Positions 1-18,767 of a DNA stretch of 63,167 nucleotides are shown here, piece after piece. Numbering within the stretch: the stretch's first letter is position 1; each line of letters begins with the position of its first letter. The DNA lies in assembly GCA_038889235.1 (NCBI GenBank), contig JAWAHN010000001.1, positions 1,027,636-1,090,802 of the forward strand. Reading direction: 5' to 3'. The position numbers and the translations under genes are program-made. This stretch comes from Candidatus Jordarchaeales archaeon. Lineage in GTDB: Archaea > Asgardarchaeota > Jordiarchaeia > Jordiarchaeales > Freyrarchaeaceae. The notes below the pieces were generated by a model. That model was given only the letters and a program-made list of their open reading frames with translations, ran no database searches and was not told the DNA's origin.

Positions 1-655
1 TATTTAAGGCGAAAAGAGAGTTCTGAGCAGCATTTAATCCACCAGCAGCTCTATCCCTAAATATCTCGTATGAACCTAAAGCTACGACTTTGCCCACTCC
101 GAACTCAGCAACAGCGGCAACGATAGCTTCTGGCGGCTCGGCGGTTTTGCTTGCAAAAGCCACACCTTCTGCATTTCCGCCAACAATTTTTAGTCCGCAG
201 CCTGCAGGGTAGCATATCTCGCTAAGTCCTTGCGTAACAGGGTGATCTGAGAAGCGCGTGACTCTTGGTATGTTTCTGCTCATGTAATTTTGCCTTTCAT
301 CAATGACTTGATTATTCTGAAAAGATATCCCAAATCTTTCAGCTATGGCGTTTAAGTTAGTTCTTAACCCCGGATCCCCTCCTGCATGACTCATGATCAA
401 AAGTCCTCCCCCGCGGGCTACAAAATTCACTATGGCATCCACTTCCGAAGGAGTAAACTTCGACTGATCAGGACAGGGGATTACCAGAATATCAAATTTC
501 TCTAGCTTTTCCTTGGTCACAGGCGGCTCTACCAGTCTAATACATTGAAATCCTTCTTTCTCAAGTAATCCCTTAAGCCCACTATAATTCAGTGCTAAGC
601 GTCCTCGCTCCTTTTGTGTTTCGTCAAAGAGGACCTTGTAATTAAAGGCGCTCAT
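1..655 (-). CDS. GIFT/ThuA-like domain protein, 3' end outside window
   Basis: The reading frame is open from an ATG at 655 (reverse strand) to the window edge, about 218 residues, with a good Shine-Dalgarno GGGAGGG just upstream. The product starts MSAFNYKVLFDETQKERG, then has beta-strand/loop patterns such as FDILVIPCP, a glycine-rich GGGLLIMSH and a late GKVVALGSYEIFRD. This is the layout of the class I glutamine-amidotransferase-like GIFT (IFT52-like)/ThuA fold, which often binds sugars or acts as a scaffold rather than an enzyme. No signal peptide is visible. It is divergent from the DNA polymerase gene. The stop lies beyond base 1, so total length and C-terminal domains are unknown. The family call is by pattern only. 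Confidence 0.6.
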   Translation of the reverse strand, partial: MSAFNYKVLFDETQKERGRLALNYSGLKGLLEKEGFQCIRLVEPPVTKEKLEKFDILVIPCPDQSKFTPSEVDAIVNFVARGGGLLIMSHAGGDPGLRTNLNAIAERFGISFQNNQVIDERQNYMSRNIPRVTRFSDHPVTQGLSEICYPAGCGLKIVGGNAEGVAFASKTAEPPEAIVAAVAEFGVGKVVALGSYEIFRDRAAGGLNAAQNSLFALN

Positions 656-861
656 ACTTTCCCTCCCATTACCATTTTAATTTCGCCTACTCGTGAATAA
701 AATAATACTTTCCTGTAGTAGAAATTAATTTCTCTCCTATAAATCAGAGCAACTGCATGTAATAAAAGACGTTTTAGCAAACTCCAAAAAATTCCCATTA
801 CACTTTCAAGCCTTTGCGCTCTAAACCCTAAGATTGGAGTGGATTTTTCTACTACACAAAC

Positions 862-870
862 TTATTTAAG
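862..870 (+). promoter_or_regulatory. TATA-like box upstream of polB
   Basis: TTATTTAAG sits about 35 bases before the polB ATG, at a plausible distance for an archaeal TATA box serving a short leader that carries the Shine-Dalgarno GGGAGGG at 892-898. Confidence 0.4.
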
Positions 871-903
871 GGTTTACCTTCATAATTACTAGGGAGGGCT
901 CCA

Positions 904-3552
904 ATGTACAAGGAAACCACCCTTTTGCAATTCCTTTCCTCTTCTAATGAAAAAACTAAAGAAAGCGATAAGAAAAATGGTACTAAACCTCCCAACTACA
1001 CGAATAAAGAAGATAGCATTTTGTCTCAACCTCATACAGATAAGGATACCCATCTTACACCAAAAGAAACTGGTGCATGCCTCCTTATTTCAGTAGATTA
1101 TGATGGTGAGCGAAATTGTGCTTATGTGCGCTTATATGATCCAGATAGCGGTAAACTCTTCTTTTGGTATGACAACACTGGGCATCGCCCCTACTGTCTT
1201 TCCGATCTTAGTGTTGAAGAATTGAAAAAGAATCCGAAGTTGATGTCGCATAGCGGCTTGGTAGGGTTCGAAGAAGTAGAGAAGTATGATCCTCTTCACG
1301 ACAGAAAAGTGAAAATGACAAAGGTTATTGGGAGTAATCCTCTGGCGATAGGAGGCTCCCCCTCTTCTATTAGAGAAATTCTTCCCAACGCGTGGGAGGA
1401 TAAGATACCCTACCATCATTGTTACATTTTCGATAGAAAATTAACTCCCGGAATGTTCTGGAGAATTAGAGATGGAAATTTGGAAAAAGTTGACCTAAAT
1501 TTTGGAGAAGAGAAAGCCATTATGGAGTTATTTAAAAATGAACCAAAGGAAGTTCAGGAAATTTTAGCCGAATTCTTACCATTGTTCATGGCGCCGGTTC
1601 CGGACATCAAGCGTGTTGCTGTAGACATAGAGGTCCTCAGTGAGGTTGACAGGATTCCTGACCCTGAAGCAGCCGAAAACGAAGTGTTATGCGCTGCTTT
1701 AGTGTCAAATGATGGAGTTTCTAAGGTTCTCGTTTTGGAAAGAGAGGGTATGAATAAGGGTGAGGTCCCCAAAGAGTTGGTTGGCAAGTTTACCGTAGAA
1801 TATTTTGCAAGTGAAATTGACCTCTTAAAGAGGCTTTTTAGTGAAATCGACAGATACCCGGTGGTTTTAACTTTTAATGGTGACAACTTTGACTTCAATT
1901 ATTTATACCATAGAGCCTTAAAGTTAGGCTTCTCCAAAGAGGAGATCCCAATATTCCTGACTAAAGATGCGGCCTGTCTTCGTTACGGTGTGCACATAGA
2001 CCTCTATAAGTTCTTTCACAACAAGTCGATACAGGTTTATGCCTTCTCGGGCAAATACAAGGAAGAAACACTTGACGCTATTTCCAAAGCACTTATCAAC
2101 GTTGGTAAAATACAGATTGAAGAGGACATATCTCAATTACCGCTTCTCCTGTTAGCTGCGTACTGCTGGCAGGACGCATACATAACTCTTGAGCTAACGC
2201 GTTTCGATGATAACTTGGTAATGAAACTAATCGTTTTAATGATGAGGATTTCACACTTGCCTATGGGGGACTTGGTTAGGCAAGGAGTGTCCTCTTGGAT
2301 TAAGAGTCTTTTCTACTATGAGCATAGAGCGAGAGGGTACCTTATTTCTAGACCGGAGGACATATTATCGATGAAAAACGTAAGAGACACAGAGCCCATA
2401 ACGAAAGATAAAAAGTTCAAAGGAGCTAAAGTTGTTAAACCGAAACCTGGAGTACACTTCAATGTTGCGGTATTAGACTTCGCCTCACTCTACCCGAGCA
2501 TAATAAAAGAATATAATCTAAGTTATGAGACCGTGAGATGTCCTCATGAAGAATGCCGCACCAACATTGTTCCGGAAACATCTCACTGGGTTTGCACCAA
2601 GAGACGGGGGATGAGCTCGCTTATAATCGGCTTCCTAAGAGATGTACGTGTTAAATGGTTTAAACCTAAATCTAAAGATAAGGGGTTAAGCGAAGAATTA
2701 CGAAAATGGTATTCCGTTGTTGAACGGGCGCTTAAAGTTTTCATAAACGCGAGTTACGGGGTTTTTGGAGCCGAACATTTTCCATTCTATTGTTTACCCG
2801 TAGCGGAAAGTACTGCTGCTATAGGCAGATATACAATAGAAGCAACTATAAGTAAAGCGCAGGAGCTCTCCCTAGAAATTATCTATGGAGACACAGACAG
2901 CGTGTTTATAAAGAATCCTCAGAGAGAGAAGGTGGAAGAATTAATTAAGTGGGCCCAGACCACACTCAACGTAGATTTAGACGTAGACAAGGTCTACCGC
3001 TATGTCGCTTTTTCTGAAAGAAAGAAGAATTATCTGGGAGTCTTCGAGGATGGCGCAGTAGATATCAAAGGTCTCACTGGAAGAAAACGCAACTCTCCAC
3101 AGTTCATTCAGGAAGCATTTCTAAGAATGGTTGAAGTGTTAAGCAAAGTGCGTTCTGAGAAAGACTTTAACGAAGCGAAAGACAAGATAGAAGAAATAGC
3201 ACGTACATGCTACCTGAAAGTCCAGAGGAAAGAGTACAGCCTTGAGGAATTTGCATTCCGTGTGCAGCTAAATAAGCCCCTTAAGGGCTATGTAAAAACA
3301 ACGCCGCAACACGTCAAGGCCGCTATGCAACTCTCTTCCTTTGGGAAAGATATCAAACCCGGCGACATAATCTCATTTGTCAAGGTTAAGGGGAAGGAGG
3401 GGGTCAAGCCCGTAGCTCTGGCCAAAAAAGAGGAAATAGATGTTGAAAAGTACAAGGAGTACCTCCGTACAGCGTTTGAACAGGTTTTAGATGCATTAGG
3501 ATTAGATTTCGACAGAATTGTCGGATTAACAAGACTAGAATCCTGGATTTGA
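904..3552 (+). CDS. polB: Family B DNA polymerase with 3'-5' exonuclease
   Basis: Replicative or repair DNA polymerase of 882 residues, a usual length plus a polar N-terminal extension of about 60 residues. The exonuclease motifs are intact: D241-I-E243, Exo II around residue 325 (FNGDNFDF) and Exo III with Y420/D424. The polymerase motifs are intact: motif A DFASLYPS from D525, motif B with NASYG near 613-618, motif C YGDTDS at about 661-666. No intein interrupts the active-site motifs where inteins usually insert. The start ATG follows GGGAGGG by 6 bases. Family B polymerase together with PolD in the same window argues against Crenarchaeota, which lack PolD. Confidence 0.95.
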   Translation: MYKETTLLQFLSSSNEKTKESDKKNGTKPPNYTNKEDSILSQPHTDKDTHLTPKETGACLLISVDYDGERNCAYVRLYDPDSGKLFFWYDNTGHRPYCLSDLSVEELKKNPKLMSHSGLVGFEEVEKYDPLHDRKVKMTKVIGSNPLAIGGSPSSIREILPNAWEDKIPYHHCYIFDRKLTPGMFWRIRDGNLEKVDLNFGEEKAIMELFKNEPKEVQEILAEFLPLFMAPVPDIKRVAVDIEVLSEVDRIPDPEAAENEVLCAALVSNDGVSKVLVLEREGMNKGEVPKELVGKFTVEYFASEIDLLKRLFSEIDRYPVVLTFNGDNFDFNYLYHRALKLGFSKEEIPIFLTKDAACLRYGVHIDLYKFFHNKSIQVYAFSGKYKEETLDAISKALINVGKIQIEEDISQLPLLLLAAYCWQDAYITLELTRFDDNLVMKLIVLMMRISHLPMGDLVRQGVSSWIKSLFYYEHRARGYLISRPEDILSMKNVRDTEPITKDKKFKGAKVVKPKPGVHFNVAVLDFASLYPSIIKEYNLSYETVRCPHEECRTNIVPETSHWVCTKRRGMSSLIIGFLRDVRVKWFKPKSKDKGLSEELRKWYSVVERALKVFINASYGVFGAEHFPFYCLPVAESTAAIGRYTIEATISKAQELSLEIIYGDTDSVFIKNPQREKVEELIKWAQTTLNVDLDVDKVYRYVAFSERKKNYLGVFEDGAVDIKGLTGRKRNSPQFIQEAFLRMVEVLSKVRSEKDFNEAKDKIEEIARTCYLKVQRKEYSLEEFAFRVQLNKPLKGYVKTTPQHVKAAMQLSSFGKDIKPGDIISFVKVKGKEGVKPVALAKKEEIDVEKYKEYLRTAFEQVLDALGLDFDRIVGLTRLESWI

Positions 3553-3666
3553 CCACATTTGATCGTTTATCAAAGAATATTCAGTGCTCTTCCTTTTGAA
3601 CACTTAGAGTTTAGAGTAAAACTTTTTACTTAGGGACTTTCTTTTTATTTCTTAAAAGTAAGGTTC

Positions 3667-4677
3667 GTGGTGTTACTTATGGAAATACGTGACCTCTTGG
3701 CTCGTAATGTACTGTTAATTGTAGATCCGTATACTCTGGGAAGGGATGCTGACGATTTTATGGCTGAATTTGGGGGATACATGGGGCAGATCGCTGCTGT
3801 GGCGAAGGATGAGGAGGGATTTGCACTTTATGACAGCAAGTATGCTCCCTTACACGAAAAACATGGAAACTTTTTTTCAACTATAGCTGAAGCCGCCGGC
3901 GCTGTTGGGATCACGCTCTACGCGGTAATCAACACGTTCATTGATAATTACTATGCTGTCGACCCTAGTTACAAGACTTATAATTCCGAGGGTGTTGCCG
4001 CCGAAGGATTCGTCTGCCCAAATAGGAGTGCTTTTTGGAGCTACTTAGCAAACATAGCTGATGAACTGTCTGCATATCCAATAAAAGGAATAATCCTCCA
4101 GGGCCTCTCTTACATACGCGAAAATTACTGTTTTTGCAATACTTGCAAGAACGAGTTTGCAAAAGTTGCCGGTCTTAATTTCGTAGCGAGTTTTGAATCA
4201 CTGCGTGATGACCCCGAAGTTCTCTCCAAATGGTTTGAGTGGCGTGCTGAAAAAATTAAAAGCGTGGTAGCAAAGATACATGAAGTTGTTAAAGAAAAAG
4301 GTGTTGAAGTTCTTCCTATGGTGAACCTTGACCCGGGTGTAGGTTATCAAAATGGGGCTTACACGCACTTCGGACAAAAGATAGAAGCCCTTTCAGAGAT
4401 TACTGGGCATGTTCTGATAAACCTTAATTCATGGTCTCCCGTCCTACCTAAAATTGACACGCCGGAATTTAACGCCCTAATTCAAAACCTTCTGCCACTC
4501 AGAAACATAACCGCCAGACGCAGAAAAATCTCCTTTATGTACTGGGCGTTCACTGAAGAAGACGAGTTTGAGTCACTAAAGAAGCTAGCGAGCTTCTTCA
4601 ACGCAACTAAGATCGTAGCATACCCGAAATTTCCACGTAATTACAGACGTTGGCGCGAACTCCACTTAAACATCTAA
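3667..4677 (+). CDS. Glycoside-hydrolase-like TIM-barrel protein
   Basis: 336-residue soluble protein without signal peptide. It shows alternating strand/helix repeats, aromatic-rich segments and the motif YCFCNTCKNEF near residues 155-165, a Cys pattern found in putative glycoside-hydrolase-like barrels (GHL families). Later segments such as VEVLPMVNLDPGVGY and ISFMYWAF look like barrel strands with acidic or aromatic active-site loops. Substrate cannot be told. The start is uncertain: GTG at 3667 or 3670 lies near AAGG, and an ATG lies at 3679. It stands alone between polB and a convergent zinc-ribbon gene. It could also be a non-catalytic barrel. Confidence 0.55.
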   Translation: MVLLMEIRDLLARNVLLIVDPYTLGRDADDFMAEFGGYMGQIAAVAKDEEGFALYDSKYAPLHEKHGNFFSTIAEAAGAVGITLYAVINTFIDNYYAVDPSYKTYNSEGVAAEGFVCPNRSAFWSYLANIADELSAYPIKGIILQGLSYIRENYCFCNTCKNEFAKVAGLNFVASFESLRDDPEVLSKWFEWRAEKIKSVVAKIHEVVKEKGVEVLPMVNLDPGVGYQNGAYTHFGQKIEALSEITGHVLINLNSWSPVLPKIDTPEFNALIQNLLPLRNITARRRKISFMYWAFTEEDEFESLKKLASFFNATKIVAYPKFPRNYRRWRELHLNI

Positions 4678-4723
4678 AGCACTTTTTAACCTTCTGCATC
4701 TGAATTTGTTTCCTTCTTTATCT

Positions 4724-5281
4724 TTAACGTAGAGAGTGCCCGCATCTTTTGCAGAATCTGGCGTCTGAGGGGAGTGTTTCCCCACAAAAGATGCAAAATA
4801 TTTTGCTTCCTTCAGAACTTACATTACTTTCAGAGTCTGGTCGCCGCTTATTAAAATAGTAAATTCCTCCATCACTAAATGTCCCGATGTTATCCCTTGT
4901 GGAGTAATACTCTTTTTGCACTTCACTGATACTCCAAAGCCCCTTAGCATACTCTATAAACTTGTTATGCATGTAACGTTTTATCTTCAAATAATCATCT
5001 TCTGACAACCCTAGAAGTCTTAATGCCTCATCTCTGGTCGCGCACTTTTTCTCCAAACCACAGCAGTATGCAAGGCTACCGTAGCAAGTCATGGCCATAG
5101 CCTTATCTTGAAGGCTTTGAAAAACTGGGTGAATTCGTTCGCTGCCAATGACCAGTATCCCTCCCGCCTCCACTCTTACGTCGGCAAATCCCTCCTTTAT
5201 GAGGGCACTCAGAACTTTGTCGGCAGGATATACGCGCCCATCTATCACTATGTTTCCCTCTGCTTTTGGGGTGCACCCCAT
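4724..5281 (-). CDS. Cys-rich domain plus C-terminal zinc-ribbon protein
   Basis: About 185 residues. The N-terminal half has GNIVIDGRVYPADKVLSALIKEGF, then a cysteine-rich stretch TCYGSLAYCCGLEKKC followed by RDEALRLLGLSEDDYLKIK. The C-terminus is a double-CxxC zinc ribbon (CIFCGE...CKRCGHSL). The YCCG..K.C..RD..L..LGL pattern recalls the domain of methanogenesis marker protein 9, but this is from memory and the match is tentative. The ATG at 5281 is preceded by AAGGTGAT at good spacing and is preferred to the GTG at 5290. It is divergent from the ESCRT cluster. Function unknown. Confidence 0.5.
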   Translation of the reverse strand: MGCTPKAEGNIVIDGRVYPADKVLSALIKEGFADVRVEAGGILVIGSERIHPVFQSLQDKAMAMTCYGSLAYCCGLEKKCATRDEALRLLGLSEDDYLKIKRYMHNKFIEYAKGLWSISEVQKEYYSTRDNIGTFSDGGIYYFNKRRPDSESNVSSEGSKIFCIFCGETLPSDARFCKRCGHSLR

Positions 5282-5445
5282 TCCAATCACCTTGAAGGAG
5301 GAAGAGGGTACATTTTGTCGTCGATTTCTTCTCTTAGCGGTCTCTGTTTAAAAACACCTGTAATATTCAGATTTTGTCCATATCAAAAGTTTTAATTTTC
5401 GTAGCATGGTATATGAATTAATGGAATTAAAAGGGGCTGACTAAG

Positions 5446-6234
5446 TTGTCTAGTGATGATTTTGAACGCATACTTGCCCAAGAAGCGCAATTGATGTATC
5501 AGCGTGCTAGCGGTTTCTCACCGGTGAAAGGCGATCTGACAGTCTGGAGAGGGGAAATAGAAGGTAGAGGAGAGTATAGAGGTCTCAAATTTGAGGTTGA
5601 AATAAAAATCCCCCCAACTTTTCCACAAGACCCTCCGTCTGTTAGGATGCTTTCCCCTACTGATCACCCCAACGTGGATCCAGAAACGGGACGCGTTCGT
5701 CTAAGCATTTTAGATCAATGGCGGCCAGAATACCACGTCTACCACGTTGTTAACACAATTAAGGGAACATTTGCTAGAGTACCTCCTCGCCCCCTCTTTA
5801 AACCGCACATAAAGAAAGTTATGGTGTCAGCAATTGCTCCGGGTGAACCTTCACAGGTTGCTTCACCTGAAACCGCTGAGAAATTAAGCGCATTAGAGAG
5901 CCAGATTAAGGAACTTCAAAGAAAACTTCAGGAGAAAGATGAGGAAATTGCCTACCTTAAAGGTCGACTAACAACGCAAATAACCCCTGAAGTTAAAGCT
6001 GACCGCGTTAGCGCTATCAAAGTAGATGTCGATGAGCAGCTAGAATTGGAGAGCGAAAAAATAGCAATAGAAGACCTATTGAGATCGCTTGAAGAAAAGT
6101 TTGAAAGTGGGGAAATAGACCCGACAGACTACACACGCCTATACAGGAAGTACAAGAAAGAGTGGTATATAGTTACAAAGAAGCTTCGAATGCTTAAAAG
6201 TTTACCGAACCCAAGCTCTGGAGGAGAACGTTAA
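5446..6234 (+). CDS. ESCRT-I subunit Vps23/TSG101-like (UEV, coiled coil, steadiness box)
   Basis: 262 residues in three parts. Residues 1-125 have the ubiquitin-conjugating (E2) fold with FPQDPP in place of YPFxPP and HPNV. The position of the E2 catalytic cysteine is arginine/leucine (GRVRLSIL), so it is an inactive UEV domain. Residues about 142-180 are a coiled coil. Residues about 195-250 (IAIEDLLRSLEEKFESG...DYTRLYRKYKKEWYIVTKKL) match the Vps23 steadiness box that assembles ESCRT-I. The start is TTG after AAGGGG. It overlaps the next gene by one base (TAATG), so the three genes are probably one operon. In eukaryotes this subunit binds ubiquitinated cargo; that role here is inference. 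Confidence 0.88.
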   Translation: MSSDDFERILAQEAQLMYQRASGFSPVKGDLTVWRGEIEGRGEYRGLKFEVEIKIPPTFPQDPPSVRMLSPTDHPNVDPETGRVRLSILDQWRPEYHVYHVVNTIKGTFARVPPRPLFKPHIKKVMVSAIAPGEPSQVASPETAEKLSALESQIKELQRKLQEKDEEIAYLKGRLTTQITPEVKADRVSAIKVDVDEQLELESEKIAIEDLLRSLEEKFESGEIDPTDYTRLYRKYKKEWYIVTKKLRMLKSLPNPSSGGER

Positions 6235-6902
6235 TGAGCATGGCCGAAAAAGTGAAATCACAGCGTGGAAACGAAAATTTGCGGCTTCAGTTGGAAGGAG
6301 AGCTATACGGATGCATCGCTACACTTGACATGCTAAGCAAGGTTTATGAAAACGGGTTAATCGATGCAGATACCTATAGAAGACAATTAGAGTGGCATGT
6401 TAAACGCATTGTAAATGTGCGCTCAAGACTTGAAAGAGAGGGCTTCGATCTAAGGAAATTTGTTGAGGAAAACCAAATACTTAAAGATTATCCTTTCGCC
6501 TCTGCTAAGCTTCGGCTAATATCACCCGACGGCGCTACAATAAGGTCTGAAGATGAAATTCCTATAGAAGCGCTTAAAGTTTCCCCCTCTGTTCTCGCTT
6601 CGAAAACTGCTGATGTTATCTCAAACTTGATAACATTAATGGATTCGTTGCAGCTGAAGGATTACGCCCGAGTGGACGTTATTGTCCCCATACTTGATGA
6701 GCTACTTCTCCAACTTGAAAAGTTCCCCGGGTTGGATGGAGCGGAATACTGGGTTTACAAAGAGGCTAAAATTTGGCGTGACAAGCTGAAAGATCTACCC
6801 CCTGACATGATTCTTGAAGAAGAAGATGCTAAAAAAATGGGGTACAACGCATACCGCTGGTATCGTGACTTTAAGCAACGGCTTAAAGACCTAACACTGT
6901 GA
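6234..6902 (+). CDS. ESCRT-I subunit Vps28-like
   Basis: 222 residues. The N-terminal helical region (ATLDMLSKVYENGLIDADTY, then FVEENQILKDYPFASAKLRL) follows the Vps28 N-terminal core, where a helical hairpin is followed by F...F.LDCPLA.ERI. The C-terminal region (about 125-222) with ISNLITLMDSLQLKDYARVD and VPILDELLLQLEKFP follows the Vps28 C-terminal four-helix domain, which contacts ESCRT-II in yeast. Start ATG at 6234 with GGAGG upstream; a second ATG is at 6240. It sits between Vps23-like and Vps22-like genes with overlapping ends, which strongly supports the assignment. Confidence 0.85.
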   Translation: MSMAEKVKSQRGNENLRLQLEGELYGCIATLDMLSKVYENGLIDADTYRRQLEWHVKRIVNVRSRLEREGFDLRKFVEENQILKDYPFASAKLRLISPDGATIRSEDEIPIEALKVSPSVLASKTADVISNLITLMDSLQLKDYARVDVIVPILDELLLQLEKFPGLDGAEYWVYKEAKIWRDKLKDLPPDMILEEEDAKKMGYNAYRWYRDFKQRLKDLTL

Positions 6903-6916
6903 GGGAGGTCAGCATT

Positions 6917-7651
6917 TTGGGTTTACGCGAAATCCGTGAAAGAATTGAGATGAAGAAAAGTATGGAAAAAAAGGCTCTCGAACTTAAACTGGAAGAACTA
7001 GAGAAGGAGCTTGAAAACGCGATGATGGTCAAAGAGAAGATAGAAAGTATCGCTGAAAAGTACGGAGTTATCATAGCGGCTAGTCCTAAATTTCAAGAGG
7101 AAGTAAAGCTTCTAAGAGAAAAATACGGGATACCCGAAAGCGCGGTCATATCTCAAATAGTGAAAGAGGAAGACGTGTTAAAAGAAAGAATGTTTGGCCT
7201 ATCTAAGAGCATAGATTACGAAAAACTTGGATTATTGATCTATCAACGTGCACTTTTCAGGCGTAAGGAAACGGGAGGGGTCATGTCCCTTGGGGAAGTG
7301 TGCCTCCTGATAGACACAGGCAAGCTCAAAGGTAAAATTAAAATGGATGATGTGAAGCGCGCTCTTAAAGAATTGGAGAAAAAACGTGTAATTCCCGGGT
7401 TACGCCAGCTTAAATCAGGAGTGGAAATCGCTATATTTATTCCGGCTGAGTTAAGTGACGATCAAAATGAAGTTCTAAATTTGGCTAGTGAAAAAGGCTT
7501 CATCACGTTAGAAGAATTAATGGTGAAGACTGGTTGGACAAAAGAGCGAGCTGAAAGAGTACTAAAATCGTTAGAAGAAAGTGGGATTGCCAGGAAAGAA
7601 GAAAGTTATGCATATGGAGAAAAATATTACTTCCCCGGACTAACTCGTTGA
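6917..7651 (+). CDS. ESCRT-II subunit Vps22/SNF8 (EAP30 domain)
   Basis: About 244 residues. It opens with GLREIRERI, a basic coiled coil, then IAEKYGVIIAASPKFQEEVKLLREKYGI, which parallels the SNF8 segment with KNPEFR..F..MC..IGVDP. Two winged-helix domains follow (GGVMSLGEV...DDVKRALKELEKKRVIPG and FIPAELSDDQNEVLNLASEKGFITLEELMVKTGW...ERVLKSLEESGIA), ending in a YYFPGL motif comparable to YWLPAL. The TTG at 6917 has GGGAGGT at ideal spacing and is chosen over the overlapping GTG at 6899. In eukaryotes ESCRT-II bridges ESCRT-I and ESCRT-III. No Vps25 or Vps36 gene adjoins it here. Confidence 0.85.
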   Translation: MGLREIRERIEMKKSMEKKALELKLEELEKELENAMMVKEKIESIAEKYGVIIAASPKFQEEVKLLREKYGIPESAVISQIVKEEDVLKERMFGLSKSIDYEKLGLLIYQRALFRRKETGGVMSLGEVCLLIDTGKLKGKIKMDDVKRALKELEKKRVIPGLRQLKSGVEIAIFIPAELSDDQNEVLNLASEKGFITLEELMVKTGWTKERAERVLKSLEESGIARKEESYAYGEKYYFPGLTR

Positions 7652-8107
7652 ACTTGTTTTATCTTTTCCTTCCCCTAGTGGTTTTCCATCTATTGTCATC
7701 ATAGGCCTTGCAGGTATACCCGCCCAAACTTGGTTTGGCGGTATTCTAGTGCCTGATAGTACTAAGGACATCGCCCCAACTACAGAGTTATCTCCTATTT
7801 CAACATCTGGGAATATTACGCTGTTTCCGCCTATGACAACATTCTTTCCTATCTTAACTCTTCCTATGCGCAATTTCCCCCTGTCGAACACATGCCCCGA
7901 AATTATGGATCCACCTCCAGCTATAGAACCATCTCCCATTTCCACTAGATATGGGTCTGCTACAAACGAAGCCATGGAACCCTTTCCCATTTTAGCTCCA
8001 AGTCGTCTTAGCACGTATGCTCCAAGCCCTGGCATGCCAAATGGCCTGTTCCTGGCGAGGGGCTTCCCTACGCCAGTTCGAACCCTATATAGTGGAGAGC
8101 AAGGCAT
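7640..8107 (-). CDS. Left-handed beta-helix (hexapeptide) acyltransferase domain
   Basis: 155 residues dominated by hexapeptide repeats (IGRVKIGKNVVIGGNSVIFPDVEIGDNSVVGAMSLVLSG) and closing with PPNQVWAGIPARPM, as in LbetaH acyl/acetyltransferases. The N-terminal part GAYVLRRLGAKMGKGS resembles the segment that joins a membrane domain to the beta-helix in Pls-type enzymes. The ATG at 8107 has no Shine-Dalgarno and lies inside the 3' end of the upstream membrane ORF, in another frame. It is therefore likely the second half of one gene, or is translated by coupling. Confidence 0.65.
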   Translation of the reverse strand: MPCSPLYRVRTGVGKPLARNRPFGMPGLGAYVLRRLGAKMGKGSMASFVADPYLVEMGDGSIAGGGSIISGHVFDRGKLRIGRVKIGKNVVIGGNSVIFPDVEIGDNSVVGAMSLVLSGTRIPPNQVWAGIPARPMMTIDGKPLGEGKDKTSSTS

Positions 8108-8424
8108 GTTACTAATCCGTTACGAAGCCAGTTCACCACGTTGGGGTTTCTTGGGCTCATCTCGTGCACTCCCTCCTCTACCGGCCTTATGGATCGTCCT
8201 GCCATGAACAGCAACGTTAAATTAAATGTCCACCTCGCGATAACATAGTATGCAGGTGCCAGAGCTACTAGCAGAAATAATGGTAACCTGAGAACTTCCA
8301 TCATGAAGTAGACTAAAACCACGACTGGAATTATCCCTACAGTAGATGCGGCCAATAGGTACCCGACTAATAACCCGAGTAAGTTCGGAACTTTTTCCTC
8401 CCTTTTTTCATTGCTCAATTCCAA
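8068..8424 (-). CDS. Membrane-anchor half of a probable split acyltransferase
   Basis: 118 residues with about three hydrophobic segments (LLGLLVGYLLAASTVGIIPV, VVVLVYFMMEVLRLPLFLLV, FNLTLLFMAGRS) and a tail NVVNWLRNGLVTCLALHYIG that runs out of frame into the hexapeptide ORF. Proteins with the same order, membrane segments then beta-helix, usually occur as one chain. Overlap with the next ORF is 40 bases. Start is TTG at 8424 or 8418 after GGGGGG. Either a frameshift mutation, a sequencing error, programmed frameshifting, or a true gene split explains the arrangement. Confidence 0.5.
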   Translation of the reverse strand: MELSNEKREEKVPNLLGLLVGYLLAASTVGIIPVVVLVYFMMEVLRLPLFLLVALAPAYYVIARWTFNLTLLFMAGRSIRPVEEGVHEMSPRNPNVVNWLRNGLVTCLALHYIGFELA

Positions 8425-9319
8425 CCCCCCAAAGTTATTCTATTATGTTTACTTTTCATCAAATAGAGAATAAAAATTCTTTCAGCATTTTCCATTATCA
8501 TTACAGTTATTCATAACTAGAACACATCCTCTTTTAATTTCAAGAGGAATTTGCTCAGGGCTGCTGTAATGCCTACTTGTAAGGGTAGCATGCTGTAAAG
8601 TAATGGTTCGGTATATGGTGCTATGAGCCAAACGAGTAGGAGTAGTGGTAGGAACATAACGATTCCTGCCACTATGGTTACTCTGCTTTCAATTTCTAAA
8701 TTGTACCTTTGGTAATTTTCTTTGATTTTACTCCTAGCTTCCATTATTGCCAGTCTCCAGTCTGCATGTAGCTTCGCTGGCTTAAGTAGCATGTAACCCT
8801 GCTTTCTAAGTACTTTTAGGGGGGTTTTTTCGATTATGTCCAAAAAAGATTCATCGGCGCTCTCGCTTCCAAACAAAATATCCTTCAACTTCTTTTTGAA
8901 AAAGGATGCTATCACTTGATCTTCAAGTTCCGCTAATATTTCAAACGCATTATGGATGTTTCCAGTCGCGGCTTCTGAAAACAAGAACGTTTCTAGAATA
9001 ATATCTGCATACTGGATGTATCTTGTTTTCAAACCTTTCATTTCTCCCAAGAAAAGAAAGATAGGTAAATTGAATGAGATTAAGAACATGCTAACTGAAA
9101 TTGTTGTTGCTAATAAGTAGTCTTTCTTGAAAGCTACCGTGCACATGAAAGTGCCCACACTTACGATAAGGCCTATAATCAAGCATCCACCGTAGAGTTC
9201 TCCTCCACTAATCTTATACTCTTCTAAAACTAACCTAAATTCGTCTTCAAGTTCCTTCTCGATTTTCTTTTTTATCCGTGCTGGAACTAGGACTGATAGT
9301 GTTCGACACAACTTAATTA

Positions 9320-11557
<2,238 letters not shown>

Positions 11558-11728
11558 AAGATGCTTAAAGCGCTTACCCGCCCAAAAAGAATTTATACTT
11601 TGCACCCATTTTTTTCCTGAAGCCACCGTTACATTAAAAAGTTTTGCATGTAGTAACAAATGCATGGAGCGCACTTCTACTAACAGCCTTAATTTGTTTT
11701 TAAAGAAATTTCGAATTGAGGTGGATCT

Positions 11729-14700
11729 ATGTCTAATAGTTATCTGACAAATGAGGACAGATGGGTCCTCGTCGAAGCTTTTATCGAAGAAAAAGGCTTG
11801 GTCCGCCAGCACCTTGCATCTTACAATGACTTCGTAGAACATGGCATGCAAGCAGTGGTAAACGAAGTTGGCAAGATCGAGATAGAAGGAGAAGACTATT
11901 ACGTAAAACTGGGAAAGATAGAAGTAGGCTATCCTCCAGCAATAAAGGAAGCTGACGGTTCCCGCAACTTAATAACCCCCGCCGAGGCAAGGATAAGAAA
12001 CCTCACATACTCCGCCCCAATATACCTAGAAATGTCGGTAGTCTACAAGGTTGACGGGAGGGAGGTAGAAGAAGAACCTGTCCAAGTATACATAGGACAG
12101 CTGCCAATCATGTTAAAGTCTGTAAAATGCCCCCTGTCAACTATGAGCCGAGAAGAACTTATTGAAATAGGGGAAGATCCAGACGATCCTGGAGGATACT
12201 TCATAATAAATGGTTCAGAAAGGGTTCTCGTTACACAGGAAGACTTGGCTCCCAACAGAATTCTTGTAGAAGAAATGGATAAAGGAGGCCCTATCACTCA
12301 CGTAGCTAAAGTTTTCAGTACTGCAAGAGGCTTTAGGGCTCCAGTGACTATGGAACGGAGGCGAGACGGCACCATAAAAGTGTCGTTCCCAGCAATTCCT
12401 GGAAAAATACCTCTTGTGGTTTTGATGCGCGCTTTGGGATTAGTGACCGACCAACAAGTGGCAAGCACCATAGACTCGAGTGATCCCGAAATTCTGAATG
12501 AATTTATCCTCTCAATAGACGAGGCATCTTCAATTTCCACCAGAGAGGATGCACTCGACTACATAGGAAAACGTGTTGCTGTAGGTCAAACAAGGGAGTA
12601 CAGGATAAAGCGCGCAGAGCAAGTCCTAGACAAATACTTACTACCCCACATAGGAACAGATCCGGAGTCACGTTTGAAAAAAGCGTTTTACTTAGGTCAA
12701 ATGGCCCAACGACTCATTGAACTTGCACTTAAAAAGCGAGAGCCAGATGACAAGGACCACTATGCTAACAAGCGCCTTAAGTTAGCTGGTAGTTTACTGC
12801 TGAGCTTGTTTAGAGTTGCGTTCCTAAATCTTTGCAAAGACATAAAATACCAGCTAGAAAGAATGGCGACAAGAGGAAAGCGTCGCAGCATAGCGAACGC
12901 TGTTCGTGCAGATGTGATAACTGACAGGTTATACCACGCTCTGGCAACCGGGAACTGGGTGGGCGGCAAGTCCGGTGTAAGCCAACTCCTAGACCGAACA
13001 AACTACTTGGCTTCACTAAGCCACTTAAGGCGTGTCGTCTCCCCACTAAGCAGAAGTCAACCACATTTCGAAGCAAGAGACTTGCATCCGACTCACTGGG
13101 GGAAAGTCTGTCCCAATGAGACTCCTGAAGGACCAAATTGCGGTCTTGTGAAAAACCTCGCCCTGCTAGCATACATATCAGTAGGGATAGATGAAAGTGA
13201 GATCGAAAACAAGCTCATAGAACTAGGTCTCCGCCCAATAGAAGAGCTCGGAAGAATAGCTGGTGTTGAAGGCGCCAAAGTATTCTTAAACGGAAGGCTT
13301 GTCGGCTTCCACAGCGACCCAGAACTGCTTGTTAAACGTATCAGGGAGCTCAGAAGATCGAATATTATACATGACGAAGTAAACGTGGCATATTACGAAG
13401 ACGCCAATGAAGTTCAAATCAATTGTGATGCAGGACGGGCAAGACGCCCATACATTATAGTTGAGAACGGGACTCCGAGGCTTAAACCAGAACACGTGGA
13501 AAAGCTGAAAAGAAAGGAATGGACGTTTTCAGATCTGGTTAGACGAGGAATAGTTGAATACCTCGACGCGGAGGAGGAGGAAAACTCCCGCGTAGCTCTA
13601 AACTTGGAAGATATTGACGAGGAAACCACTCACCTAGAAATTATGCCGACAACGATTTTAGGAATTTCTGCCGGAATAATCCCCTATGCTGAACACAACC
13701 AGAGTCCAAGAAACACCTACGAAGCAGGTATGGCCAAGCAAGCCCTAGGACTTTTCGCCTCAAACTACAAGCTTAGAATGGATACAAGATCTCATATCTT
13801 ACACTACCCACAAACCCCAATAGTTACTACTAAGGTCGGCAAGCTATCTGGCTTTGAAAAAAGGCCTGCAGGGCAGAACTTCATAGTTGCAGTCTTATCC
13901 TATGAAGGGTACAACATAGAAGATGCGCTCATAATAAATAAGGCGTCCATAGAGCGCGGCATAGGCCGCTCATTCTTCTTCAGGTGTTACGAGGCAGAGG
14001 AAAGAAAATATCCAGGAGGACAAGAGGACAGGTTTGAAATCCCCGATCAAAGTGTAAGAGGCTATAGGCAACCTGAAGTGTACAAGCGCCTATCCGAAGA
14101 CGGAATAGTAGAGCCCGAAACCGAAGTAGCAGGGGGCGAAGTGATAATAGGTAGGACTAGTCCACCGAGGTTCCTTGAAGAGCGAGCCGAATTCGAGGTC
14201 CTCTCACCAATAAGGCGAGAAACCTCAGTCAGCATAAGACACGGAGAAAAGGGAACAGTAGACACCGTCATACTCACGGAGACCATAGACGGAAACCGTC
14301 TCGTGAAAGTTAAGATACGCGACCAGAGGATACCCGAATTAGGAGATAAGTTTGCGACAAGGCATGGGCAAAAAGGAGTCATAGGCATGATAGTCCCACA
14401 GGAAGACATGCCTTTCACAGAAGACGGAATAGTCCCTGATTTAATAATAAACCCACATGCATTTCCGTCAAGGATGACCCTAGGGCAACTAATAGAGTCT
14501 CTTGCTGGAAAAGTAGGTTGCCTAGCGGGAAGAAAAGTAGACGGAACAACATTCTGCGGAGAAAAACCCGAAGACCTATGCGAAGAACTCAAACGCTTAG
14601 GATTTAAGTACAACGGGAAGGAAGTAATGTATAACGGTATCACAGGCGAAAAATACGAAGTAGACATATTCATAGGCGTTGTCTACTACCAGAAGTTACA

Positions 14701-15076
14701 CCACATGGTAGCAGACAAAATGCACGCTCGCTCAAGAGGCCCCATACAAATACTGACTAGGCAGCCAACTGAGGGCAGAGCTAGAGAAGGCGGATTAAGA
14801 TTCGGAGAAATGGAACGCGACTGCCTTATAGGAATGGGCGCGGCACTACTACTCAAAGAAAAGCTTGTAGACGAGTCGGACAGGACGGAAATCTACGTCT
14901 GTGAAGAATGCGGTGGCCTAGCGGTCCAGACGCAAAACAAGAAGCTCTACTGCCCGCTGTGCGGCGAAAAAGTCCGCATATCAAAAGCGGTAGTAAGCTA
15001 CGCGTTCAAACTACTAATCCAGGAAATGATGTCGATGTGCATATTCCCAAGGCTAAAACTAGAAAGCATAATTTAG
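11729..15076 (+). CDS. rpoB: DNA-directed RNA polymerase subunit B, unsplit
   Basis: 1115 residues, the length of the fused B''+B' chain; many Euryarchaeota have it split. Conserved blocks are present: [14 protein letters not shown], the rifampicin-pocket region, [45 protein letters not shown] and the C-terminal zinc site CEECGG...CPLCGEK near residue 1057, ending [12 protein letters not shown]. Start ATG after GAGGTGG. Unusually it is not beside rpoA' or rpoH: the neighbours are a DUF151 gene and a convergent Lrp gene whose stop lies 1 base from this one. RpoA'' is encoded 35 kb away. Confidence 0.97.
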
Positions 15077-15077
15077 C

Positions 15078-15530
15078 CTAGAAGCCGATCTTACTTTTAC
15101 TTTCTCCAACTATAACTGAACGCACACCCCTAACCCCTTCAAGCATGGCCACTTTATTTTGCATAAATGAGAAAAACTCATCAATTCCTTCAGTTCTAAC
15201 AAACACTACAGCGCACGGCTCCCCCCCAACACCCACAAAAACATCGCTAACTTCAGAAAAAGAGTAAAGCTTTTCGGAAACATAACTAATTCTTCCAGGG
15301 TCAACGTCTATTATGAGAACAGCCAAAAACTCAAAACCCAACTTTTTCCAATCCACCTCAACAGTAAACTTCCTGATGACCCCTCGCTTCACTAGTTTCT
15401 TAATTCTATTCGCAACGGTTCCGGCACTAACCCCAACCATTATGGAGATTTCACTAAAACTCTTCCTTCCGTCATTAAGAAGGATTGAAATAATCTTACG
15501 GTCAACATCATCAATTTTCTCATCTGGCAT
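15078..15530 (-). CDS. Lrp/AsnC family transcriptional regulator
   Basis: 150 residues with an N-terminal helix-turn-helix (DDVDRKIISILLNDGRKSF, VSAGTVANRIKKLVKRGVI) and a C-terminal RAM/ASNC ligand-binding domain (FLAVLIIDVDPGRI, GGEPCAVVFVRT, VRGVRSVIVGES). Such proteins are dimers or octamers that sense amino acids or related metabolites. Start ATG after GAGGGTTAAGGT. The target cannot be read from the sequence. It is convergent with rpoB, leaving almost no room for separate terminators. Confidence 0.88.
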   Translation of the reverse strand: MPDEKIDDVDRKIISILLNDGRKSFSEISIMVGVSAGTVANRIKKLVKRGVIRKFTVEVDWKKLGFEFLAVLIIDVDPGRISYVSEKLYSFSEVSDVFVGVGGEPCAVVFVRTEGIDEFFSFMQNKVAMLEGVRGVRSVIVGESKSKIGF

Positions 15531-15640
15531 ACCTTAACCCTCTCCGTTAGAAATCTCCTCAAAACGACAGAACTAATGTTGATAAAAGGTAATTATATTT
15601 CTCTTTTCTCCTAACAAGCTTTTATAAAACTTCAATAACC

Positions 15641-15656
15641 TTTTTTTAATAAAAAA
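15641..15656. terminator. T-run terminator for tRNA-Lys and possibly rpoB direction
   Basis: Seven T followed by AATAAAAAA gives T-runs on both strands. On the reverse strand it lies about 9 bases past the tRNA-Lys 3' end, where archaeal transcription commonly stops at oligo-T. Confidence 0.45.
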
Positions 15657-15664
15657 GAGGTTTA

Positions 15665-15797
15665 CGGGCTGGGCGGGATTTGAACCCGCGGCCGCCGGGT
15701 TAAAAGCTTCGCCCGTTTTTATTTGTCCGGCGCTTTAGGCGAGCCACGACTTTAGCTCTACCTAGTTCCCCGGCAGCTGCCTCTGAGCTACCAGCCC
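15665..15797 (-). tRNA. tRNA-Lys(TTT) with two non-canonical introns
   Basis: Acceptor GGGCTGG pairs with CCAGCCC, the T-arm is GCGGG-TTCAAAT-CCCGC, the discriminator is G and no CCA is encoded. Removing 15735-15776 (42 nt, D-arm) and 15708-15726 (19 nt) gives a 72-nt tRNA with D-arm GCTC-AGAGGCA-GAGC and a perfect anticodon stem CCGGG/CCCGG around CTTTTAA. Intron 1 has a bulge-helix-bulge central helix AGGC/GCCT. Intron 2 has CGCC/GGCG with bulges GGA and AAG and sits in the anticodon stem (30/31), not at 37/38. Boundaries are by eye. Confidence 0.88.
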
Positions 15798-15920
15798 ACT
15801 CGGGTCTAATGTTTACACCTCTCTCCCTTATATTTTTCGGTGAACCCGCGTTGTCACCTCTCAGAAAAACTTTTATCCGCATTCGTGTGTCTTGTCTTTC
15901 GTCTTTTGGGGGTTTTAGGG

Positions 15921-16436
15921 TTGCAGGAGACCGAATTAGTTGAGCGGTGGGTCAAAGTCCTACTTTCTTGTGTAGTTGCTTCATCTTTCAGTATCACATT
16001 TGCGCTTGCTGTTTACTCGCTTGAAGGTTTGTTTTTTTCGTTCCCACAATCCTTCTACGTGCTGTCATCCATAGGATGCTTTTCGTTCGCCCTCCTCCTG
16101 TTAGCATTTGCACACGTTTACTTTAAACGCGTGGAAAGAACCCTGCAAGAAAAAAGTGTTCTATTTCGAAGGGTGAAACAAGTTGGTTTGCAAATGCTCA
16201 AAATGGGCCTCTCATTTGCAAGCCTTTCTACACTACCCTTGGCATACCTGTTTTTACGTTCCTTTTTGCTTACCTCCAATTTAATTCAACTTACTGTACT
16301 TTACTTGCATCCACTTTACCTTTTACAACTCATACTTCCTATTGACGTTTACATTTCACGCCTGTTCTTCATTATATGTCTCTGCCCAGCATCTATTCTT
16401 CTACTCGAGGGATTAGTCCTCTACAAGAAAATGTAA
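15921..16436 (+). CDS. Four-helix membrane protein, unrecognised
   Basis: About 171 residues from TTG at 15921, which has GGGGG about 9 bases upstream; a longer frame opens at 15840 but begins close to tRNA-Lys. Four hydrophobic segments are visible: VLLSCVVASSFSITFALAV, VLSSIGCFSFALLLLAFAHVY, LSFASLSTLPLAYLFL and a C-terminal pair around LYLLQLILPIDVY and LFFIICLCPASILLLEGLVL. A basic loop (KRVERTLQEKSVLFRRVKQ) separates the second and third. No family recognised. It is convergent with cdc48. Confidence 0.5.
   Translation: MQETELVERWVKVLLSCVVASSFSITFALAVYSLEGLFFSFPQSFYVLSSIGCFSFALLLLAFAHVYFKRVERTLQEKSVLFRRVKQVGLQMLKMGLSFASLSTLPLAYLFLRSFLLTSNLIQLTVLYLHPLYLLQLILPIDVYISRLFFIICLCPASILLLEGLVLYKKM

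Positions 16437-16457: not shown

Positions 16458-18767
<2,310 letters not shown>

Follow-up and report, generated by a model that had tools for sequence, protein, structure and literature searches.

ESCRT is a membrane-cutting machine, and the Asgard archaea are relatives of the ancestors of complex cells. In G010, a genome of one contig (1.42 Mb) that we take to be Odinarchaeum or a close relative, separate genes for a UEV-bearing Vps23, a full Vps28 and Vps22 stand in tandem, and Vps25, Vps4, ESCRT-III, ubiquitin and E2 are also present, the matches lying within about 8 kb. According to PMC9192718, the Vps23 homologues of Odin and Heimdall bind ubiquitin through their UEV domain, and other Asgard proteins show Vps23-Vps28 assembly as well as contacts of ESCRT-I with Vps22 and of Vps25 with ESCRT-III. 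The co-direction of vps22 with vps23 and vps28 in Asgard archaea and the presence of ESCRT-I to -III in Freyarchaeia, the name that others give to the Jordarchaeia (PMC11291895), also appear in published work. It has likewise been argued in print that gene order reflects assembly order (PMC10936438), which is the very argument of the preliminary description of the present sequence, namely that gene order mirrors complex order. Both the trio of genes considered here and its order are already known in Asgard archaea.

The window, that is the whole stretch of 63,167 nucleotides of the Jordarchaeales genome that we analysed, carries the three ORFs between positions 5446 and 7651. The features of the locus are as follows (positions in the window).

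4724..5290, minus strand: gene for a zinc-ribbon protein of 188 aa, divergent neighbour of the trio, kept beside it in related loci
5446..6234, plus strand: vps23-like gene (ORF of 262 aa with a TTG start; Pfam, AlphaFold2 model)
5458..5790, plus strand: UEV (E2-like) domain, residues about 5-115 (UQ_con, VIA fold match, Arg at the Cys column)
5869..5973, plus strand: coiled-coil stalk helix of Vps23, residues 142-176 (AlphaFold2 model)
6007..6201, plus strand: steadiness box hairpin of Vps23, residues 188-252 (Vps23_core, under the cut-off; hhalign to the Vps28 hairpin)
6220..6226, plus strand: GGAGGAG, likely ribosome site for vps28, as read from the sequence
6234..6902, plus strand: vps28-like gene (ORF of 222 aa; Pfam VPS28)
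6285..6443, plus strand: steadiness box of Vps28, residues about 18-70 (hairpin profile comparison)
6591..6884, plus strand: Vps28 C-terminal domain, residues about 120-217 (profile positions 116-207; limits estimated from the alignment)
6904..6909, plus strand: GGAGGT, likely ribosome site for vps22, as read from the sequence
6917..7651, plus strand: vps22/SNF8-like gene (EAP30), likely TTG start, 244 aa; listed ORF 6899-7651, 250 aa

The vps23 and vps28 ORFs overlap by 1 base and those of vps28 and vps22 by 4 bases, and the three genes are presumably co-transcribed. The start of vps22 is more likely the TTG at 6917 than position 6899, because it follows the GGAGGT motif and because the Vps22 ORF of 10 of the 17 aligned relatives opens exactly at the corresponding MG.. 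position. A search of the three proteins against NCBIfam returned no useful name.

The best Pfam match of the first protein was UQ_con (E 9.7e-19, over the cut-off, residues 25-110), those to UEV (9.4e-5) and to Vps23_core (9.4e-5, residues 199-243, 22.8 bits for a cut-off of 26.8) being under theirs. Its AlphaFold2 model, of modest quality (pLDDT 74.9, pTM 0.41), consists of an E2-like domain, a long helix (142-176) and a hairpin (188-220/226-252), and could be superimposed on the E2 fold with VIA (6d6i_B, Z 15.4, rmsd 2.0, 107 residues aligned). The profile of its relatives also matched E2 enzymes among the PDB sequences. No TSG101/Vps23 chain figured among the best 60 of 301 PDB sequence matches, the best 50 of 680 Foldseek matches or the 50 VIA entries; this excludes nothing, since these lists were filled by E2s. 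Among the matches listed, the E2-like domain is nearer to ordinary E2s than to TSG101, both by sequence and by fold. In an alignment of 39 E2-fold sequences, an Arg replaces the catalytic Cys of E2s in the window protein; none of the 28 Vps23-type sequences has this Cys, all ten E2s have it, and the one further E2-fold variant is also devoid of it. A FastTree phylogeny of the same 39 sequences, a set with no eukaryotic UEV, placed the window-type UEVs apart from the 10 active-type E2s. The first gene encodes a Vps23 with a UEV domain, not an active E2.

The predominance of E2s in the Pfam and fold results, together with the active-type E2 encoded in the genome, would also fit a protein working chiefly as an E2 cofactor similar to Uev1/Mms2, which would steer ubiquitin chain formation and would be no ESCRT ubiquitin receptor. 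We consider this most improbable given what follows the E2-like domain, a coiled coil and then a C-terminal steadiness box, identified from the helices of the model and from the hairpin profile. The Vps23 hairpin matched that of Vps28 in hhalign (95%, E 3.7e-8), for at most 0.4% when four control helix sets were compared with either of the two hairpins. The chain of gene overlaps from vps23 to vps22, the location of the active-type E2 gene on another contig and the ubiquitin binding of the Odin and Heimdall homologues through their UEV, reported in PMC9192718, argue against the cofactor role as well.

The second protein matched VPS28 from end to end (Pfam, 1.4e-16, profile positions 3-188 of 188), and the profile of its relatives retrieved from the PDB the VPS28 C-terminal domain 2j9w_A (2e-11) and yeast Vps28 2caz_B (1.5e-4), so that both the N-terminal hairpin and the C-terminal domain are matched by solved chains. 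The third protein matched EAP30 (Pfam, 2e-17, profile positions 6-215 of 219). Both matches exceed chance, since VPS28 was matched in none of the 14 control genomes and EAP30 in two of the 14, neither over the cut-off. The profile of the Vps22 relatives scored better with human SNF8 (4.3e-37) than with Vps36 (4.1e-17), and the AlphaFold2 model, also modest (pLDDT 71.1, pTM 0.47), retrieved 3cuq_A, 2zme_A and 1u5t_A first with Foldseek (SNF8 7.6e-10). Vps22 thus combines a coiled coil with tandem winged helices and is nearer to SNF8 than to Vps36. The trio shares its domain architecture with the eukaryotic ESCRT-I and ESCRT-II proteins TSG101, VPS28 and SNF8, the last being the best solved relative of Vps22; in contrast to the eukaryotic complexes, the whole genome yielded a single EAP30 protein, the Vps22 of the trio, in a search with the EAP30 profile, and no second one that could be Vps36. 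These results agree with the preliminary description, which had placed three overlapping or adjacent genes at this position, had read them as UEV-coiled coil-steadiness box, Vps28 and EAP30 winged-helix proteins and had linked such genes mainly to Asgard archaea: the calls were upheld by the profiles and by the PDB sequence matches, the structure prediction that it proposed supports the folds of genes 1 and 3 with modest confidence, and the genome is indeed of Asgard lineage.

We then compared the locus with those of other genomes. The VPS28 profile gave 43 matches in 38 of 59 genomes, of which the 30 best-scoring loci, our own included, were examined and the 13 weaker ones left out. The genes follow each other on one strand in the order vps23, vps28, (Vps28 C-terminal gene), vps22 in 28 of these 30 loci, with vps23 cut by the contig end in one of the 28. 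The two exceptions were L020, which opens at the end of a contig and comprises vps28-vps22, and L024, with vps28 alone. ESCRT-I genes are described as not tightly clustered in 90 Heimdall-, Hel-, Loki- and Thorarchaeota genomes (PMC9192718), a sample that is not comparable with our 30 loci, picked by VPS28 score and from other lineages. The window genes share domains and domain order with the Heimdallarchaeota Vps23-Vps28 fusion of the same source; we found such fusions, followed by vps22, in four of the 28 ordered loci (L023, L028, L029, L031). The window differs from the fused type in having two genes, and in lacking the extra Vps28 C-terminal gene between vps28 and vps22 that is present in 15 of the 30 loci.

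A scan of named genomes with the Vps22 alignment retrieved at least 13 loci, 12 bearing Asgard lineage names in their titles and one titled 'archaeon isolate H02S_Hermod'. Among the matches listed, the closest four Vps22 loci (55-58% identity) are titled Jordarchaeia (two), Freyarchaeota (one) and Sigynarchaeota (one). The last, L063, has a trio as near to that of the window as those of the Jordarchaeia-titled records, together with the zinc-ribbon neighbour, and its title may be a misassignment. The loci titled Hermodarchaeum or Hermodarchaeota, L070, L071, L073 and L075 ('archaeon isolate H02S_Hermod'), contain genes for vps28, the Vps28 C-terminal domain and vps22, as well as vps23 in L070, L073 and L075; in L071 the contig starts within vps28. 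PMC10936438 states that Hermodarchaeia have none of these, a sentence that may mean something narrower. G005, G006 and G007 belong to the order of the window genome but not to its family, and we place the window in the order of the Jordarchaeia.

The three genomes of the same genus (G001-G003, 70-83% complete) gave no match to Vps28, EAP30 or Vps25, and the single UQ_con match of each corresponded to a Cys-bearing E2. Incompleteness alone would produce such an absence for one locus in about 1.4% of cases (0.30 x 0.27 x 0.17, independence assumed), which could mean that sister species can do without the trio and are in the process of losing it. We regard such a loss as very unlikely, since no frame is disrupted and all three share 52-63% identity with their closest relatives, which also led us to reject a reading of the trio as decaying or pseudogenic. 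Moreover, the surroundings of vps4 are conserved in G001, where the contig breaks off within this gene, and the absence of Vps25 from G001 is readily explained by a gap in the assembly. The DNA of window positions 600-16000 gave only short matches, in two of the three genomes, and tblastn of the window genes against the contigs of G001-G003 revealed no common gene arrangement from which a vacant site could be recognized.

The remaining parts of the pathway were recovered in the same genome, and its absence from the genome can be rejected. Together with the trio they occupy four places, whereas the matches in G010 lie close together. Adjacent vps4 and vps25 genes (C1:976713-978586) are on the contig of the trio, about 54 kb away (Vps4: MIT 8.5e-12, Vps4_C 9.5e-11; the ESCRT-II protein Vps25: 1.4e-13). 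Two ESCRT-III genes (2.7e-19) are at C2:13.9-18.3 kb. A RING gene (1.2e-6), ubiquitin (1.2e-13), a Cys-bearing E2 (4.4e-36) and an E1-like gene (ThiF, 3e-66), the latter read beside the ubiquitin gene, are grouped near C2:384-386 kb, on a contig other than that of the trio (all Pfam). A 124-aa gene adjoining this group (L038:10074-10448, minus strand) had no Pfam match at E 0.05. The Asgard ubiquitin-ESCRT set (ubiquitin, an E1-like protein, E2, ESCRT-III, Vps4 and Vps25) is therefore present in one genome.

It had been stated that the window holds no Vps25, Vps36, ESCRT-III, Vps4, ubiquitin or active E2 and that the rest of the pathway must be elsewhere or absent, and a search of the whole genome for ESCRT-III, Vps4 and ubiquitin had been proposed. 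This search located all three outside the window, as were all matches to Vps25 and active E2, and the single EAP30 protein of the genome bears out the lack of Vps36. For Vps4 the statement needs one nuance: vps4 itself is outside the window, although a CDC48-type AAA protein at 16458-18698 gives a weak Vps4_C match. Of the two options left for the rest of the pathway, "elsewhere" is the right one for Vps4-Vps25, ESCRT-III and the ubiquitin system, but Vps36 was not found.

The trio is very probably an operon for ESCRT-I plus Vps22 in a ubiquitin-coupled ESCRT pathway whose remaining parts are encoded elsewhere. By analogy with the other Asgard proteins, Vps23 and Vps28 would pair through their steadiness-box hairpins, an assembly documented by published biochemistry (PMC9192718), and the Cys-less UEV of Vps23 would bind ubiquitin on membrane cargo. 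The signal would reach Vps22 through the C-terminal domain of Vps28; Vps22 and Vps25 would together recruit ESCRT-III, and Vps4 would recycle the ESCRT-III polymer.

A tight tie of Vps25 to Vps4 and ESCRT-III is presented in PMC9192718 as the usual, not strictly defining, Asgard pattern. In our genome, by contrast, Vps4 and Vps25 are adjacent and ESCRT-III is on another contig. Vps4-Vps25 and ESCRT-III are likewise on different contigs in G004-G007, draft genomes in which this alone is no proof of distance; in G007 some 61 kb separate the ESCRT-III genes from the end of their 450-kb contig. The separation also occurs elsewhere, for instance in G023, G028 and G030, and so is not unique.

The less ordinary points are outside the trio: the separation of ESCRT-III from Vps4-Vps25, and a HerA ATPase beside ESCRT-III. 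This ATPase, a HerA/FtsK superfamily member of 947 aa (DUF87 2.7e-10, HerA_C 3.6e-6 in Pfam; a P-loop and a DEAH-type Walker B) is encoded between the two ESCRT-III genes (L035:13888-18282, G000:C2). With orthologues defined by E below 1e-100 or, in G002, by a C-terminal fragment at 58% identity, it was recovered in eight of the 59 searched genomes (our own, G002-G007 and G016), and an ESCRT-III gene adjoins it in all eight (L035, L081-L087). Five of them (our own, G005, G006, G007 and G016) have ESCRT-III genes to either side of the ATPase, one of these being separated from it by a 345-aa gene in G005-G007. In G002, G003 and G004 a contig end hides the second side. None of the more distant HerA relatives in G012, G032, G045 and G050 is beside ESCRT-III. 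No report of the link was found in the literature, supplements and figures lying outside that search.

The C-terminal hairpin of the HerA ATPase, absent in G016, bears a weak likeness to the steadiness box. In hhalign it reached 13% (E 0.0021) with the Vps23 hairpin, 9% with that of Vps28 and 5% with that of a zinc/PH-like protein encoded nearby, for 0.1-2.8% with four controls; when HerA relatives lacking the hairpin were included in the set, the values were 7.7%, 4.8% and 9.4%. With at most 13%, a true steadiness box is not established. One may speculate, with considerable doubt, that in this Asgard order ESCRT-III has parted from Vps4-Vps25 and become linked to a HerA ATPase whose hairpin docks on the Vps23-Vps28 headpiece. 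If true, a DNA motor would be connected with the machinery of membrane scission, for instance in DNA clearance or export during closure or vesicle formation.

The same neighbourhood is an argument for a role of the ESCRT set in cell division, similar to that of the Cdv proteins in TACK archaea and with ESCRT-I/II as recruiters, since the ATPase beside the ESCRT-III genes might ensure that DNA is cleared as the membrane closes. Such a role appears unlikely: the genome has two matches to the FtsZ/tubulin family, which makes division by ESCRT less probable, and the presence of a complete ubiquitin cascade suggests that cargo is handled. The ubiquitin-coupled pathway that we favour would presumably serve cargo sorting or vesicle budding rather than division.

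The zinc/PH-like protein, of 493 aa, is encoded beside the ESCRT-III genes and has a hairpin matching the Vps23 steadiness box (hhalign 98%, E 6.2e-14), together with weak zinc-finger (0.004) and Vps36-PH-like (0.017) Pfam matches, both under the cut-off. On these matches we would assign it to the Znr_PH_CC_SB family described in PMC10936438. It is encoded outside the window, as a neighbour of ESCRT-III and not of ESCRT-I.

The trio extends to one more family of the Jordarchaeia order the evidence that a ubiquitin-coupled ESCRT system predates eukaryotes; it is a well-supported case, and its Vps23 and Vps28 are encoded separately, as they are in eukaryotes. Of more use than the trio itself is the dispersed ESCRT layout of this order, which departs from the single-cluster picture and brings out a recurrent, directly testable association of ESCRT-III with a HerA-like ATPase.

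Two neighbours of the trio also have counterparts in related loci. The zinc-ribbon protein is 43-45% identical to its counterparts in L063-L066 and 43% identical over 120 residues in L088, and matches the methan_mark_9 domain under the cut-off (1.3e-10). The glycosyl-hydrolase-like protein encoded at 3667-4677 on the plus strand (GHL10 0.0048, under the cut-off) is 36% identical to a protein encoded close to the G016 trio (L088).
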